Under the pieces are notes generated by a model. The model was not told the DNA's origin and did not search any database. It saw only the letters and a list, made by a program, of their open reading frames with translations. The position numbers and the translations under genes are program-made. Shown one piece after another: positions 55,496-60,991 of a stretch of 64,000 bases of DNA. Within the stretch, counting starts at the first letter, position 1. Every line of letters begins with the position of its first letter. Origin of the DNA: Candidatus Goldiibacteriota bacterium HGW-Goldbacteria-1 (lineage in GTDB: Bacteria; Oederibacteriota; PGYV01); NCBI GenBank assembly GCA_002839855.1, contig PGYV01000001.1:1-64000 (forward strand), read 5' to 3'.

Positions 55496-55954
55496 CTATT
55501 TCTTTTCTTTTGCCTTTTCCCTTAAAGCCTTGCGTTCTGCGGGCGACATTTTCTGATATTTTTCATATGCCTTTTTTATCTTTTCTTTTTCTTCGGGAGA
55601 CAGTTTTTTCCACTGCTCGTATTTTTCCTTTAAAATCTGCTTCATCTGAGGGGAAAGTTTTTCCCATTCTTTGTACGCTTCTTTTAACCTTTCTTTTTCT
55701 TCCGGGTCCATCTCTTTAAGTTTCTTATGGTTCTTCATTATCCACATCTTTTTTTCAGGGGAAACCTCTTCCCAGTCGCTGTATATTTTTCTTATCTTTT
55801 CTTTTTCACCGGGTTCAAGCGCGTCCCATGACTCTTTTGTTTCTTTTTTCACTGAAGCTGCGTTTTCATCACCCGCCGCGGATTTAACATCCGCCGCAAA
55901 AGTAAAAGAAGCAAAAATAACCATTACCGCCGCCAGAATAATTTTTTTATACAT
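55496..55954 (-). CDS. DUF3106-type secreted protein of six 18-residue repeats
   Basis: The 152-residue product has a signal peptide (1-20) and, after a short linker, six back-to-back units of exactly 18 residues (43-60, 61-78, 79-96, 97-114, 115-132, 133-150). The consensus is W-x-x-L-S-P-E-E-K-E-x-I-K-x-x-Y-x-x, for example WKKLSPEEKEKIKKAYEK. This is DUF3106. Each unit should form a helix capped by the Ser-Pro turn, giving an elongated basic-acidic solenoid in the periplasm. It follows the ECF sigma/anti-sigma pair and is probably under their control; a role in envelope stress or metal binding is possible. Confidence 0.85.
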   Translation of the reverse strand: MYKKIILAAVMVIFASFTFAADVKSAAGDENAASVKKETKESWDALEPGEKEKIRKIYSDWEEVSPEKKMWIMKNHKKLKEMDPEEKERLKEAYKEWEKLSPQMKQILKEKYEQWKKLSPEEKEKIKKAYEKYQKMSPAERKALREKAKEKK

Positions 55955-55979
55955 TTATACCTCCATAAAAAATCTTTTA

Positions 55980-56453
55980 TTATGCTCCGTTTGCCCTGCT
56001 TAAAGATTCGTAAAAATCAAGCCTTTCAAGTATTTCAATGTTCTGTATTATTTCCATTTTTTCTCTGATTTCCGCCTGGCTGCGCAGGTTATCCTGCGTC
56101 CTTACGTACTGAAAAGCCGCTCCCGCCACAAAAACCGCCATTATAGTGGCTATGCCTGCCCTCTTAAACGTGCTGGAACGGAACAAATCGGTTATAAACG
56201 CGAACTTTCTATTTTTCTGCGCTTCAATCTTTTCGTGAATCCCTTTCCTGTGCATGGCCCATACCGAATCAGGAAAATCCACTTTTATTTCAGAAGCCGC
56301 ATCCGCTATTTTTTTATATGACGCGTAAACAGCCGCGCAGTCCGCACAGGTTTCTATGTGTTTCTTTACTTTTGAAACCTCTGCAGCGTCATGAATCTCG
56401 CCGTATATATAATCCAGAATCAGCTCTTTTTTATCATTACACTCTTTGTTCAT
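55980..56453 (-). CDS. Anti-sigma factor with zf-HC2-type zinc finger
   Basis: The 157-residue membrane protein has an N-terminal zinc-binding anti-sigma domain with HIETCADC (His-x3-Cys-x2-Cys, about 32-39), a linker with basic residues, one membrane helix (about 95-113, RAGIATIMAVFVAGAAFQYV) and a short periplasmic tail ending with the ILERLDFYESL pattern seen in related anti-sigma factors. It would hold the upstream ECF sigma factor inactive at the membrane. Its start overlaps the sigma gene stop (ATGA). The small outer part suggests regulation by proteolysis or by a helper such as the DUF3106 protein. Confidence 0.88.
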   Translation of the reverse strand: MNKECNDKKELILDYIYGEIHDAAEVSKVKKHIETCADCAAVYASYKKIADAASEIKVDFPDSVWAMHRKGIHEKIEAQKNRKFAFITDLFRSSTFKRAGIATIMAVFVAGAAFQYVRTQDNLRSQAEIREKMEIIQNIEILERLDFYESLSRANGA

Positions 56454-57025
56454 TTTTGATTACCTCCTTCTGTAGCATTCTTTATCTTTTCCATCGCTCT
56501 GTTTAAATGGGACTTTACAGTACCTTCTGATATTCCGATAATTCCTGAAATTTCCCTTATCTTATACCCTTCAAGATTCTTTAACATGAACACCTGCCGC
56601 TGAATATCTGTCAATCCCTGCATGGCGTCAGTTATATTCTCTTTTAGTGATTTTTTTTCGTAATCTTCTTCTATATTAACGCAGTCCTTTATGTCAAACC
56701 CGCGGTCATCCGGGTCATCACTTTCCATATCTGTCATATTCCTGAACCGTGACTGCACTTTCTGTTTTCTGCCGTTGTCATAAAAAGCGTTCATTGTAAT
56801 ACGGTATAAATATGTCCAGAAAGAACTGTCGCCCCTGAAAGAGCCTATATTTCTTATGACTTTAATGAACACTTCCTGGGAAATATCCCAGGCTTTATTG
56901 TAATCAGCCGTCAGGCCAAAAGCCATATTATATACCCTTTTCTGGTATCTTATAATAAGCTCATCTGCCGCGCCCTTTTTGCCGGACTTTATATCCATTA
57001 TAATTTCCAGATCCGCTCTGTCCAT
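56450..57025 (-). CDS. ECF RNA polymerase sigma factor (RpoE-like)
   Basis: The 191-residue protein has sigma2 (about 22-92, with YQKRVYNMAFGLTADYNKAWDISQEVF, the region that binds core polymerase and the -10 element) and sigma4 (about 125-185, ending GYKIREISGIIGISEGTVKSHLNRA, the helix-turn-helix for the -35 element). Sigma1 and sigma3 are missing, as in group 4 factors. The acidic linker (about 95-120) is longer than usual. It is encoded with its anti-sigma factor and a DUF3106 protein, so it probably answers an envelope signal. The target promoter motif was not found. Confidence 0.93.
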   Translation of the reverse strand: MDRADLEIIMDIKSGKKGAADELIIRYQKRVYNMAFGLTADYNKAWDISQEVFIKVIRNIGSFRGDSSFWTYLYRITMNAFYDNGRKQKVQSRFRNMTDMESDDPDDRGFDIKDCVNIEEDYEKKSLKENITDAMQGLTDIQRQVFMLKNLEGYKIREISGIIGISEGTVKSHLNRAMEKIKNATEGGNQK

Positions 57026-57118: not shown

Positions 57119-57571
57119 TTAAAGCCTTTTCCACATTATAAGGCCGTCGTATTTATCCTCATAGAATTTAGGCCGTCTGCCCTTAATTTCGTACCCGAAT
57201 TTTTTATACATTTCAAGCGCAGCTTCATTATTTTCCCTTACTTCAAGGGTCAGCGAAGACAGCCCGGCAGCAAACACCTGCCTTTCCACCTGCTTTAAAA
57301 GCCCTGTGGCTATGCCGTTTTTTCTGAATTCCGGCGCGACAGCCACGTTTGAAATATGTGCGTAATCCGCAATTTTATCAGCAATTATATAACCCAAAAG
57401 CCTGTCTGACGCCTTATCCCTGGCGGCAAAGAAAAATGAAAGGGCGCTGAAAAACTTTGAAATTTCCACATTAAAAGCTTTTTCATCCCACGGCCTGGCG
57501 TGGCATACCTTTTCAATTTCCAGTATTTCAGCAAGGTCATTCTTGGATACATTCTTTATATAAAAATCCAT
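57119..57571 (-). CDS. rimI: Ribosomal-protein-alanine acetyltransferase-like GNAT enzyme
   Basis: The 150-residue protein has the GNAT core: HISNVAVAPEFRKNGIATGL (the acetyl-CoA loop Q/RxxGxA variant RKNGIA) and LEVRENNEAALEMYKKFGYE near residue 120, characteristic of RimI. RimI adds acetyl to the N-terminus of ribosomal protein S18. Length matches (about 150). No tsaB or tsaE partner lies nearby. It starts three bases after the phosphodiesterase gene stop, so it belongs to the same transcript. Confidence 0.88.
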   Translation of the reverse strand: MDFYIKNVSKNDLAEILEIEKVCHARPWDEKAFNVEISKFFSALSFFFAARDKASDRLLGYIIADKIADYAHISNVAVAPEFRKNGIATGLLKQVERQVFAAGLSSLTLEVRENNEAALEMYKKFGYEIKGRRPKFYEDKYDGLIMWKRL

Positions 57572-57574
57572 ATA

Positions 57575-58345
57575 TTAAACTGTGTACTCCTTTTTTTCCT
57601 GCAAAGGCGTCACTTTAAGCCCCGGTATGGCGGCAAGTTCTTTTTTTACTTTTTTAAAGTATTCCGGTTTAATGTGGTACACGTAAATTTTAGGTTTTAA
57701 ACCGCCAAGTTTTTTTAAGTCCTCGTGCAGCGTTTTTGGCACATAATGCCCGCTGGTTTCCGCAAGCGCTTTAAGGTCATTTGGAAAAGATATTTCCGCG
57801 AAAACAGTTTTAAGCTTATCGCCAAGTTTTACGGCTTCCGCCCAGATATTATCGGTGGTTTTTGTGTCCCCCGTATACATTATATAATGGTCATCTTTTC
57901 CTATCAGGAATCCAAAAGTGGGAACCGTATGATTAACAGAAACCGCTTTTATTTTATATCCTCCCAGTTCAAACCATTCATTTTCTTTTACCGGCATATA
58001 TGAAAAAATATCCTGACTTCCAAAGTTTTTTATTTTTGTAAAATCCGGCCATACCACGCCGTTTAACAGGTGTTTTTTAATAGCGTCAATTGTGAATTCC
58101 GACGCTGCAATTTTAACCGTGTCCGCTTTATTGCTTACAATATTTACCGCAAAAAACGGAAGCCCCCCGATATGGTCCATGTGCGAGTGCGAAATAAGCA
58201 CATTGCGTATACCGCGCTGTTCTTCAATGGTTGAATTAAGCGCTATAGTCCCCGCGTCTATTAAAAGCTCCCCGTTTAAAATAAAACCCGAATTGTGTTT
58301 TTCCGGTAACTGCCCGCCATAACACCCCAGAACTTTTATCTTCAT
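57575..58345 (-). CDS. Class II 3',5'-cyclic-nucleotide phosphodiesterase-like MBL-fold enzyme
   Basis: The 256-residue metallo-beta-lactamase-fold protein has LGCYGGQLPEKHNSGFIL at the start, the zinc motif SHSHMDHIGG (HxHxDH at about 53-58), then NGVVWPDFTKI, MYTGDTKTTDNIW, EISFPND, the Ser-Gly-His SGHYVPKTLHEDL and a late His in YHIKPEYF. The NG-xWPDF, EISFPN and SGHxxP blocks fit the class II cAMP phosphodiesterase group (PDE1/CpdP) better than RNase Z. The ATG at 58345 is preferred over GTG at 58351 because GGGGAGG is seven bases before it. It follows a CHASE2/cyclase-like gene. Confidence 0.72.
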   Translation of the reverse strand: MKIKVLGCYGGQLPEKHNSGFILNGELLIDAGTIALNSTIEEQRGIRNVLISHSHMDHIGGLPFFAVNIVSNKADTVKIAASEFTIDAIKKHLLNGVVWPDFTKIKNFGSQDIFSYMPVKENEWFELGGYKIKAVSVNHTVPTFGFLIGKDDHYIMYTGDTKTTDNIWAEAVKLGDKLKTVFAEISFPNDLKALAETSGHYVPKTLHEDLKKLGGLKPKIYVYHIKPEYFKKVKKELAAIPGLKVTPLQEKKEYTV

Positions 58346-58347
58346 TT

Positions 58348-60033
58348 TCACGCCTCCCCGCGCAGCCCCGCCAGATTAAAAAACTTTGAGTTTTCATAAC
58401 CCGGTATCTGCTGAAACTTTGTTATATTAACGTACTGTTGTATCTCTTTTTCCGCCACAAGCATATATTTTTTCAAAGGCAGAATATAAGCTTTTTTTCT
58501 GATATCGCCATCCTTTTCCAGAAAGGCCAGTTCTCCGCCCCTGTCAAACACATAAACTTCGGTGGTGTTAATCAGAATATTAAAATCGCCTGATTTTATT
58601 TCATCCCTTACCGTTCCCAGAATTTCAACAACCTTTTTTCTGTCCGCTTCCCCAAAAATAATCGCCGTCAGTTCCCCGCTTCCGGAAGCGCTTGTAAGCA
58701 CGTCCTTAAAGGCCGCATGCAGCGTTTTCTGAATAAACTGAAAATCCTTCTTTAAATCGGCGGGATCATCATGCGACAAGCCAAAACTAAAGTAAACAAC
58801 ATCCGCTTTCAGCCATGTGTTTCTTAATTTTATATCGCTGTTCCTTTTTACAAAGCGCTCCGCGGCGCCTTCAGGCATTGCCTGCCGCAGAAAACTTTTT
58901 CTTTTTTCCATTTCCCTTTTTTTGCTTCCGGCCTTATACCCGTAAATCAGTACAAAAGCCATTATGTTGCCGAATGAAACCGCAGGATAATCGCCATAAA
59001 TCCCCGAAACATAGAGCCAATAAAAAGCGGCTGCAGAAGCAAACTGTATAAAAATAAAAAGCGGAAATCCCGCCCCTATTCCAAATTTGAAATACGCCCC
59101 TGCTGCCAGCAGCATAATAAGCGCGGCGGCAATATAATTAATTACCCTGTCAAAAGTTATCTTGCCCCGGTCAAGCATCATTGAAACGGCAGCCCCAACC
59201 GCCTGCATTGAATACGCATCGGAATTGCTGTCAGAAACTATTATTATCCTGTTATCCGCTTCCTGCGGGTCCATTGATATAAATTTATTCAGTGCCATAA
59301 CTTCAGGTTTCCCGGCATAAACAGGCACAGCCATTTCACCCGAAGAATTAAGGGCAGCCCCTGTAATGTCGCCTATTTTCAATTTCCCGTCTTCAATGCC
59401 TATCCTGCTTCTGGGAAGCTTATAATATTTTCTTAAAGCTTCCGCGGGCGCGGATATTATGATACCGCCTTTTACCGAATATAAAGCGGGTATTTTAAAA
59501 GGCGTGTATTTAAACCCGCTGAAAAAACCGGTATTCCTGGAAGAAAGCCACAGCCTTTTATTTTCTATTTTCCCGGCCGAAAACCCGCGCGGGCTGCCTT
59601 TATACTTTGCCCCGCTAAAATAAACGTATTGGGAAATATCCTCTCCTGCCGCGCCTGTTTTACCGTATCTGTTAAAAACAACGGGCACAAACCCTTCCGC
59701 TTCCGCCACAAGAAAAGAAAAATCCTGATATTTTTTCTGCGCGTTTTCAAGCCCGTTAAAATCCTCGCCCGCCATGAAATCACCCGGCGTTTTTGAAAAG
59801 ATATCCGGCATAAACAAAGTGACGGAATTTTTAAGTTCCCCTGTTTTTTTAATAAAAGCCGCGGAGGATTCCGCGTTGAAATTCCCGTTGATAAAAATTA
59901 CTTTTTCATTAACCGCGGTTCCGGAAGCACCGCTTACAGCCTTAAGCGAAAGCGATAAAAGATAATCCGCCGAAAGGACATATAGCACAACCGCAATAAC
60001 GGCAGCAGCCGCATAAATGATTTTTTTAGACAA
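58348..60033 (-). CDS. CHASE2-like receptor with degenerate class III cyclase domain
   Basis: The 561-residue membrane protein has a first helix (about 5-28), an extracytoplasmic CHASE2-like domain (about 40-290), three further helices (about 297-315, 322-343, 350-366), and a cytoplasmic domain (about 405-540) at the place of a class III adenylate cyclase. ADVVYFSFGL aligns with the usual VxVLFxDIxGF: the metal Asp is Phe at about 417. GELTAIIFG aligns with GDxxLAxFG: Asp becomes Glu454. The base- and transition-state residues are not apparent. It is likely inactive or strongly altered. The start is TTG at 60033 with GGGGA upstream. It is coupled to the phosphodiesterase gene. Confidence 0.65.
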   Translation of the reverse strand: MSKKIIYAAAAVIAVVLYVLSADYLLSLSLKAVSGASGTAVNEKVIFINGNFNAESSAAFIKKTGELKNSVTLFMPDIFSKTPGDFMAGEDFNGLENAQKKYQDFSFLVAEAEGFVPVVFNRYGKTGAAGEDISQYVYFSGAKYKGSPRGFSAGKIENKRLWLSSRNTGFFSGFKYTPFKIPALYSVKGGIIISAPAEALRKYYKLPRSRIGIEDGKLKIGDITGAALNSSGEMAVPVYAGKPEVMALNKFISMDPQEADNRIIIVSDSNSDAYSMQAVGAAVSMMLDRGKITFDRVINYIAAALIMLLAAGAYFKFGIGAGFPLFIFIQFASAAAFYWLYVSGIYGDYPAVSFGNIMAFVLIYGYKAGSKKREMEKRKSFLRQAMPEGAAERFVKRNSDIKLRNTWLKADVVYFSFGLSHDDPADLKKDFQFIQKTLHAAFKDVLTSASGSGELTAIIFGEADRKKVVEILGTVRDEIKSGDFNILINTTEVYVFDRGGELAFLEKDGDIRKKAYILPLKKYMLVAEKEIQQYVNITKFQQIPGYENSKFFNLAGLRGEA

Positions 60034-60060
60034 TCTGATGTCCCCGTATGCCGTCAGAAA

Positions 60061-60699
60061 TTATATTTCTCCAAAGGCTTTTTTCATTTCAAGATACTGT
60101 TTGTATTTTCCGATATTATCAGCGCTGCTTACAGTTATGGAATCTCCGTTAATCACTATAACTTTTGCTTTTTCCATAGCCCCAAGTATTTCCAGCAGTT
60201 TGGGTTTATTTTCATCCATGCCGGTCTCTGTTACAAGCGAACTAAGCGAAGTGACAGAGTTGTCGCCGCTTTTAGAAACATGCATTAAAAGAGTATTTAC
60301 CACGCGCATATTAAAGTCCTTGGTGGTAAGATTTTTAAGCTGTTCGTTCATCAGGCGGATTCTGGAGCTCATGTTCTTTAAAATCTTTTTTACTATCTTC
60401 GCGTTTCGCTGCATCTGCTGTTCAAAAAGTTCTTCGTTTAAAGCTATACATACCGTATCCGCAGCGGCAATGGCGGATGCCGAACGGACATCCTTGTCTA
60501 TTACAGCCATTTCGCCGAAGAAATCCCCCGCGCCAAGAGTAACAAGCGTTTTTTCGCCGTCATCCGTTTTTTTTGTTATTTTAACCGAGCCTGTATGGAT
60601 AATAAACATTTCTTCGCCTACCGCGCCTTCTTTAAATATATATTCTCCCGCTGCAAACTGCCTTCCATAACGCCCTAATATATCATCTTCATTTGACAT
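60061..60699 (-). CDS. CRP/FNR-type cyclic-nucleotide-binding regulator
   Basis: The 212-residue protein has a cNMP-binding domain (about 8-115): AAGEYIFKEGAVGEEMFI, TLGAGDFFGEMAVI and the phosphate-binding cassette Gly62-Glu63 with Arg72-Ser73-Ala74, the residues that bind the ribose and cyclic phosphate in CRP. A long dimer helix (about 105-135) and a divergent winged helix (about 150-205, LSSLVTETGMDENKPKLLEIL) follow. Thus it can probably bind cAMP or cGMP, though DNA binding is less sure. AGGAGG precedes the ATG. It lies 27 bases upstream of the pseudo-cyclase gene and starts the operon. Confidence 0.85.
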   Translation of the reverse strand: MSNEDDILGRYGRQFAAGEYIFKEGAVGEEMFIIHTGSVKITKKTDDGEKTLVTLGAGDFFGEMAVIDKDVRSASAIAAADTVCIALNEELFEQQMQRNAKIVKKILKNMSSRIRLMNEQLKNLTTKDFNMRVVNTLLMHVSKSGDNSVTSLSSLVTETGMDENKPKLLEILGAMEKAKVIVINGDSITVSSADNIGKYKQYLEMKKAFGEI

Positions 60700-60784
60700 A
60701 ACAACCTCCTGAATTCTTAAATCATTTTAGTCTTGTATTTAAAGTATTTTACTATAAAAAAGACGGGGGTGTCAATGGAAGACA

Positions 60785-60833
60785 GGATGCTTGGACAGGA
60801 TGCTTGGATGGTTAGATGTTTGGATGCTTGGTT
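60785..60833 (+). repeat. GATGCTTGGA-type repeat
   Basis: Four or five variants of GGATGCTTGGA and TTAGATGTTTGGA occur in tandem. An inverted counterpart lies at 60954-60989, so the two arms flank the 80-bp repeat at 60864-60943. The same words are at 22964-23016. Confidence 0.6.
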
Positions 60834-60863
60834 AAAGCAAAACTGCGAAGCGGAAATCCCCGT

Positions 60864-60943
60864 GCAAACTTGTTCGGATACAAGATTACCAATTTGCGGC
60901 GTGTACTGAAAAAACACACCCAATCACTGTAAAACCGAAGGTC
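60864..60943 (+). repeat. Dispersed 80-bp intergenic repeat, copy 2
   Basis: Alignable with 4152-4231 across the whole length, including ACCAATTT, GTACTGAAAAAA, ACCCAA and CTGTAAAACCGA. It lies between the inverted GATGCTTGGA arms, in a gap of about 290 bases that holds no gene. Confidence 0.6.
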
Positions 60944-60953
60944 GTCGCTTTAG

Positions 60954-60989
60954 CCAACCTTCCAAGCATCTAACCTTCCAAGCATCCAG
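60954..60989 (-). repeat. GATGCTTGGA-type repeat, inverted arm
   Basis: On the minus strand this reads GGATGCTTGGAAGGTTAGATG... and matches 60785-60833. It ends directly at the 3' end of the cardiolipin synthase gene. Confidence 0.6.
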
Positions 60990-60991
60990 TC

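Follow-up and report, generated by a model that had tools for sequence, protein, structure and literature searches.

The window analysed here is the first 64,000 nucleotides (nt) of contig PGYV01000001.1 of Candidatus Goldiibacteriota bacterium HGW-Goldbacteria-1, and its subject is a set of three genes. They encode a CRP-type cyclic-nucleotide-binding protein, a CHASE2-type membrane receptor and a metallo-beta-lactamase (MBL) fold protein that resembles the class II cyclic-nucleotide phosphodiesterases (PDEs). The gene set is real, conserved and unusual, and its anatomy is well supported. Our preferred reading, to which we give a probability of about one half, is that the receptor derives from a CHASE2 cyclase, has lost catalysis, and is kept as a signal-dependent regulator of an older pair made up of the PDE and the protein that binds cyclic nucleoside monophosphates (cNMPs). 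The three open reading frames (ORFs) are where the first-pass annotation had placed them, head to tail and all on the minus strand, from 60699 to 57575.

60061..60699, minus strand: CRP-type cyclic-nucleotide-binding protein, 212 amino acids; Pfam cNMP_binding 1.2e-25; cassette residues E63/R72/S73
58348..60033, minus strand: CHASE2-type membrane receptor with a predicted degenerate class III cyclase domain (pseudo-cyclase), 561 amino acids, TTG start
57575..58351, minus strand: class II cyclic-nucleotide phosphodiesterase-like MBL protein, 258 amino acids, GTG start; Pfam PDEase_II 71.9 bits

The membrane receptor

The receptor consists of an N-terminal transmembrane segment, an outside domain, hydrophobic segments at about residues 297-370, linker helices at 374-399 and an apparently degenerate cyclase domain at 405-561. 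Its hydropathy profile is that of CHASE2 receptors, with a single segment at the N-terminus and several clustered at about 297-370. Direct searches of the Pfam, NCBIfam and PDB sequences with the window receptor gave no match, and homology was seen only when profiles were used. The receptor was searched for in 45 genomes of the phylum, 14 of them from the same uncultured taxonomic order as the genome of the window (hereafter the order). Pfam CHASE2 (PF05226) matched four of 11 orthologs, with a best E-value of 4.7e-4, and gave nothing above its curated cut-off for the window protein. Alignment of the receptor profile with the CHASE2-type cyclases of the phylum by hhalign gave a probability of 97.3% (E 1.9e-11) over 239 columns, which run from the last part of the sensor domain through the transmembrane segments and the cyclase linker. 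The same profile also matched the transmembrane and linker part of cyclases in three genomes, directly before their catalytic domains.

In local mode, hhalign against cyclases that have no CHASE2 domain recovers the linker only, and global mode with shuffle controls was therefore used for the cytoplasmic part. When aligned globally with 29 cyclases, the receptor profile from 370 to 561 scored 24.2, and none of 60 column shuffles scored above 11.8. A two-sequence AlphaFold model of the full-length receptor was unusable, with a predicted local distance difference test score (pLDDT) of 37.7. With a model of residues 377-561 (pLDDT 51), class III cyclases outnumbered every other class in the top 50 Foldseek matches in the PDB. 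These included 3et6, 5o5k, 4ni2, 1cjv, 7yz9 and others, each with a probability of about 1.0 and E-values of 2e-3 to 1e-2. The list also contains ACT-type and PII-like ferredoxin folds. Taken singly, the profile and Foldseek tests are modest, but because they combine with the CHASE2, transmembrane and linker homology directly in front, the cytoplasmic domain is likely to be a degenerate class III cyclase domain.

The catalytic columns were then read from the alignment. Phe417 occupies the position of the first metal-binding Asp and is invariant in all 11 orthologs. Position 454, that of the second metal-binding residue, is acidic in every ortholog (Glu in five, Asp in six). It had been proposed that both metal Asp residues are replaced, by Phe417 and Glu454; this is correct for the first and does not hold for the second. 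At position 450, that of the substrate Lys, the orthologs have S, H, I or N, and in the Asn/Arg region, 505-516, where the alignment is less certain, neither Asn nor Arg is conserved at the aligned columns. Judged from these residues, cyclase catalysis by the receptor is very unlikely. Residues D400, N405, W407, Y414, R476 and N485 are invariant within the family and mark a family-specific function. The original description, a CHASE2-type receptor whose cyclase-shaped domain is catalytically degenerate, is supported by the hhalign result, by Pfam CHASE2 in the orthologs, by the global profile score, by Foldseek and by the catalytic columns.

The CRP-type protein

Glu63 and Arg72-Ser73 of the phosphate-binding cassette, which had been picked out from the window sequence alone, are present and are invariant in 20 CRP orthologs across the phylum. 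The adenine contacts of E. coli CRP, Thr127-Ser128, do not recur as Thr-Ser in the window CRP alignment. The label of CRP-type receptor is apt for the cNMP-binding site with its intact cassette. It also suggests a transcription factor, but no Crp helix-turn-helix (HTH) is detectable in the order. The HTH_Crp_2 profile was found in none of the 11 CRP orthologs of the order at E-values up to 1, and in all 13 scanned from outside it, six of them above the curated cut-off. Compared with orthologs from outside the order, the cNMP domain is 61-65% identical and the C-terminal part 31-42%.

A possible but unlikely alternative is that the protein is still a DNA-binding factor whose winged helix has diverged, and that the system is an ordinary cyclic AMP (cAMP) loop of receptor, PDE and regulator. 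Within the order the C-terminal region aligns throughout, at 56-94% identity, the NtcA and FNR models align weakly over the full length, and the recognition helix is atypical in the whole of the CRP family here, all of which would fit a diverged domain. Against it stand the distribution of the HTH_Crp_2 match, absent from every ortholog of the order and present in every one outside, and the stretch before the HTH, which is about eight residues shorter than in the outside orthologs.

In the same genome, the genes of an intact class III cyclase and of a canonical CRP, whose HTH is strong (1.4e-14), lie one gene apart (L172 5306-7739). An ordinary cAMP-CRP pair is therefore encoded elsewhere in the genome. 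A second short cNMP-binding protein, of 148 amino acids, is found close to another MBL-fold gene (L174 5772-7375).

Conservation and origin of the gene set

The receptor is present in 12 of the 14 genomes of the order, in one of them, genome G006 (L029 1-2269), as a partial copy at a contig end with a different upstream neighbour. Outside the order, the receptor profile found nothing in the phylum genomes beyond the transmembrane and linker part, which belongs to ordinary CHASE2-type cyclases. A search for the same gene order in related genomes, suggested at the outset as a check, found the succession CRP-receptor-PDE-RimI kept in all 11 genomes in which the locus is uncut. The sigma factor gene that follows is in the same place in each, and the 11 genomes represent at least five families. 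The anti-sigma and DUF3106 genes further downstream are also retained in the ten genomes whose contig extends far enough. Because the order is kept in every uncut locus, the CRP-receptor-PDE-RimI set is not a product of chance.

Relative to the nearest relative, the ratio of nonsynonymous to synonymous substitution rates (dN/dS) is 0.04 for the CRP gene, 0.06 for the receptor gene and 0.05 for the PDE gene, so that purifying selection acts on each of them. The value for the receptor rules out a decaying pseudogene; a spurious ORF was also considered and rejected. The receptor is the fastest evolving of the three proteins, with a cross-family identity of about 27-30%, the values for the CRP-type protein and the PDE being about 70% and about 55%, respectively.

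In five genomes from families outside the order, the CRP and PDE genes are adjacent with no receptor between them, downstream of an rpsA-like gene. In several other families the CRP gene occurs without the PDE gene. Because the pair adjoins without the receptor elsewhere in the phylum, it is probably the older element, and the simplest history is that the receptor was inserted between the two genes later, in one order. In genomes G007 and G009, which belong to the order, the CRP, receptor and PDE orthologs were all undetected, and no close ortholog of the sigma factor was found. This joint non-detection is as expected for a unit.

The genes could share an operon and not a pathway, with rimI and the PDE gene as housekeeping genes and the receptor as an independent sensor. 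Such an arrangement would be consistent with a RimI protein that scores above the cut-off for ribosomal S18 acetyltransferases, and with the persistence of the CRP gene without the PDE gene noted above. We consider it distinctly unlikely, however, given an order that is fixed in at least five families, a receptor gene that is placed exactly between those of CRP and PDE, and the joint absence of the genes from two genomes.

The MBL-fold phosphodiesterase-like protein

Pfam PDEase_II (PF02112) matches the MBL protein with 71.9 bits, against a cut-off of 23.7. When a profile of 16 members was used, yeast PDE1 came first among the solved relatives (E 1.9e-13), and RNase Z and YhfI ranked below it. 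The first-pass annotation had assigned the protein to the class II PDEs rather than to RNase Z, and both results bear this out at the level of a class II-like protein. The motifs on which that assignment was based fared unequally. The zinc motif and the N-x3-WPDF block are invariant in the 16 orthologs, and the EISFPND and SGHYVP blocks are kept only in part (F184, E186, H202). The full set of invariant residues comprises HxHxDH (H55, H57, D59, H60), H141, D162, H226 and N97/W101-P-D-F104. In the window protein the zinc motif reads SHSHMDH and not HxHLDH, which is the form found in most of the orthologs. The published class II motif is HXHLDH (PMC4222275), and that of an atypical bacterial class II group is [T/S]HXHXDH (PMC9293780).

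It is rather improbable that the protein is some other RNase Z-like hydrolase and not a cyclic mononucleotide phosphodiesterase. RNase Z is the best raw match in NCBIfam, although at 48.9 it is far under the cut-off of 293, and Apyc1 and YhfI are relatives too. The PDEase_II score and the match to yeast PDE1 argue for a PDE, and led us to reject RNase Z as the identity of the protein; the WPD-F block, common to PDE1 and invariant in the orthologs, argues in the same direction. A Pycsar or anti-Pycsar system was also rejected, as Apyc1 scored 21.5 bits against a cut-off of 50 and no effector gene is present in the conserved cluster.

Proposed mechanism

Among the intact class III cyclases of the genome, of which there are at least three, one has a true CHASE2 domain. 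In the mechanism that we infer, the intact cyclases, which lie elsewhere in the genome, would make the nucleotide, to be removed by the PDE of the operon and bound by the CRP-type protein. An extracytoplasmic cue would be sensed by the CHASE2-type domain of the receptor, and the resulting change of shape would reach the dead cyclase domain by way of the transmembrane helices and the cyclase linker. The dead domain would then dock on, or release, the PDE and/or the cNMP-binding protein, and the result would be local control of the cyclic nucleotide level. The receptor would in this way couple an outside signal to the CRP-type protein and the PDE via its dead domain. What the sequences themselves show is the architecture, the missing catalytic residues, the constant cNMP and metal sites, the kept linkage, the purifying selection and, in other families, a CRP-PDE pair that has no receptor. 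The identity of the ligand, its hydrolysis, the physical interaction, the direction of control and a non-transcriptional output all belong to the proposal. Because the CRP-type partner has no recognisable DNA-binding domain, output through protein-protein contact seems more likely than direct binding to promoters. More tentatively, and with somewhat less than even chances, the genes may form a membrane-linked, non-transcriptional switch composed of a CHASE2 pseudo-cyclase, an HTH-less CRP-derived protein and a dedicated PDE, in which the losses of catalysis and of DNA binding were linked events in one order.

Several results weigh against a disabled cyclase that regulates this pair. The core of the cytoplasmic domain without the linker (405-561) scores 11.3, just above the best shuffle at 9.5, and among 60 shuffles of the core that leave the linker in place, one reaches 23.6, compared with 24.2 for the true profile. 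The two-sequence AlphaFold model of 377-561 is of low confidence (pLDDT 51, core about 55-74), and Foldseek with this model gave no match at an E-value of 0.001. The apparent loss of the HTH is the failure of one profile to find it, and may reflect divergence. Finally, G006, a fragmented genome of the order, has the partial receptor, but CRP and PDE were not detected in it.

Active sites of class III cyclases form at the dimer interface, and the receptor could be the non-catalytic heterodimer partner of an intact CHASE2 adenylate cyclase, supplying or blocking half of a shared active site. The conserved cyclase linker, the second metal position that stays acidic, and the intact CHASE2 cyclase that is kept in this genome and its relatives would all suit such a partnership. 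The intact CHASE2 cyclase family is, however, also found where the receptor is absent (G007), and the catalytic Asn and Arg positions, which a complementing subunit would be able to supply, are lost as well; the chance of a heterodimer is, in our estimate, small. It is very improbable that the receptor is an altered cyclase with another product, be it a new nucleotide or a new chemistry: purifying selection, the one acidic metal position and the new conserved residues (D400, N405, W407, R476, N485) might be quoted for it, but Phe replaces the first metal Asp in 11 of 11 orthologs and Lys, Asn and Arg are lost together.

Neighbouring genes and transcription

The features that flank the three genes are as follows.

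60746..60775, minus strand: sigma-70-like promoter match, TTGACA-N18-TAAAAT, upstream of the CRP gene; 11/12 consensus positions, consensus match only
57119..57571, minus strand: RimI-type GNAT acetyltransferase, 150 amino acids; TIGR01575 103 bits, cut-off 86.4
57108-57081, minus strand: promoter-like match, TTGACA-N16-TAAAAT, before the gene of the extracytoplasmic function (ECF) sigma factor
56450..57025, minus strand: ECF sigma factor; Sigma70_r2/r4 Pfam match; neighbour kept in 11 genomes
55980..56453, minus strand: putative zf-HC2 anti-sigma factor; PF13490 E 0.003, below its cut-off; position kept in 10 genomes
55496..55954, minus strand: DUF3106 protein; PF11304 E 9.2e-22; position kept in 10 genomes

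The CRP and receptor genes are 27 nt apart, the receptor and MBL genes overlap by 4 nt, and rimI begins 3 nt after the MBL gene. There follows a gap of 93 nt, which contains the promoter-like match, and then the genes for the ECF sigma factor, the anti-sigma factor and the DUF3106 protein, the second of these overlapping the first by 4 nt. The three genes of interest had been described as one transcript. They are co-linear as described, and the unit is larger, since it takes in rimI and is followed by the sigma, anti-sigma and DUF3106 genes. On account of the gene spacing and of the promoter-like matches before the CRP and sigma genes, two transcripts, one of four genes (CRP-receptor-PDE-rimI) and one of three (sigma-anti-sigma-DUF3106), appear likelier than a single one, and the ECF sigma gene probably starts a transcript of its own. 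A promoter scan of the region gave approximately the same number of matches as scans of shuffled sequence, so the matches are weak evidence. As RimI passes the cut-off of the ribosomal acetyltransferases, it may be only a passenger in the tight CRP-receptor-PDE operon.

The genes of the ECF sigma factor, the zf-HC2 anti-sigma factor and the DUF3106 protein (55496-57025 of the window) make up another conserved set, which lies immediately downstream in ten of the order's genomes. Between genes at 60781-60991 there is an inverted repeat with 45-nt arms that are 87% complementary and 108 nt apart. With up to two mismatches allowed, the core of this repeat, GGATGCTTGGATGNTTAGAT, has 77 occurrences in the 2.86 Mb genome, compared with 0 for a reversed control pattern, and is a member of a dispersed repeat family.

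Comparison with known systems

The CHASE2-class III adenylate cyclases, of which there is an example in the same genome (G000:C4:99943), share with the receptor the N-terminal transmembrane segment, the outside domain, the transmembrane segments and the cyclase linker. Unlike them, the receptor has a degenerate catalytic domain, below Pfam detection, and a very diverged outside domain. The CRP-type protein has in common with the CRP/FNR family (E. coli CRP, GlxR) the cNMP-binding domain, the C-helix and the Glu and Arg-Ser of the cassette, but in the order it lacks a detectable HTH. The MBL fold ligands and HxHxDH are common to the window MBL protein, yeast PDE1 (PDB 4ojv) and the atypical class II enzymes of bacteria, Rv1339, YhfI and C. 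glutamicum CpdA (PMC9293780). Yeast PDE1 shares the WPD block as well; the window protein is shorter than PDE1, and its class II-like activity is predicted from sequence.

Pseudokinases are well known. In a limited literature search, no description was found of a bacterial class III pseudo-cyclase receptor kept together with its own cyclic-nucleotide receptor and phosphodiesterase, and the literature on pseudo-cyclases, CHASE2 operons and cNMP-regulated acetyltransferases yielded no matching system. The gene set suggests that a disabled enzyme has been retained as a signal switch. It also offers two comparable states, a CRP-PDE pair with an HTH and no receptor in other families, and a receptor with no detectable HTH in this order, and their comparison provides a testable case of a signalling enzyme turned into a switch.

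The closest known locus is cyaD1-clr-spdA of Sinorhizobium meliloti, which encodes the CHASE2 adenylate cyclase CyaD1 (with CyaD2 and CyaK), the CRP-like Clr and the phosphodiesterase SpdA (PMC4222275, PMC13001267). In S. meliloti the cyclases have kept their activity, Clr regulates by binding DNA in a cAMP-dependent manner, and SpdA, a metallophosphoesterase of class III, is active towards 2',3'-cNMP but not towards 3',5'-cAMP (PMC4222275, PMC13001267). SpdA cautions against assuming that a PDE encoded beside a cyclase has 3',5'-cAMP as its substrate. The statement in the first-pass annotation that no described system has this exact set was too strong in view of this similar locus, although its cyclase is active and its PDE is of another class. 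In the window set the cyclase appears degenerate, no HTH is detectable in the CRP-type protein and the PDE resembles those of class II, yet both loci bring together a CHASE2 receptor, a cNMP receptor of the CRP family and a cyclic-nucleotide phosphodiesterase.

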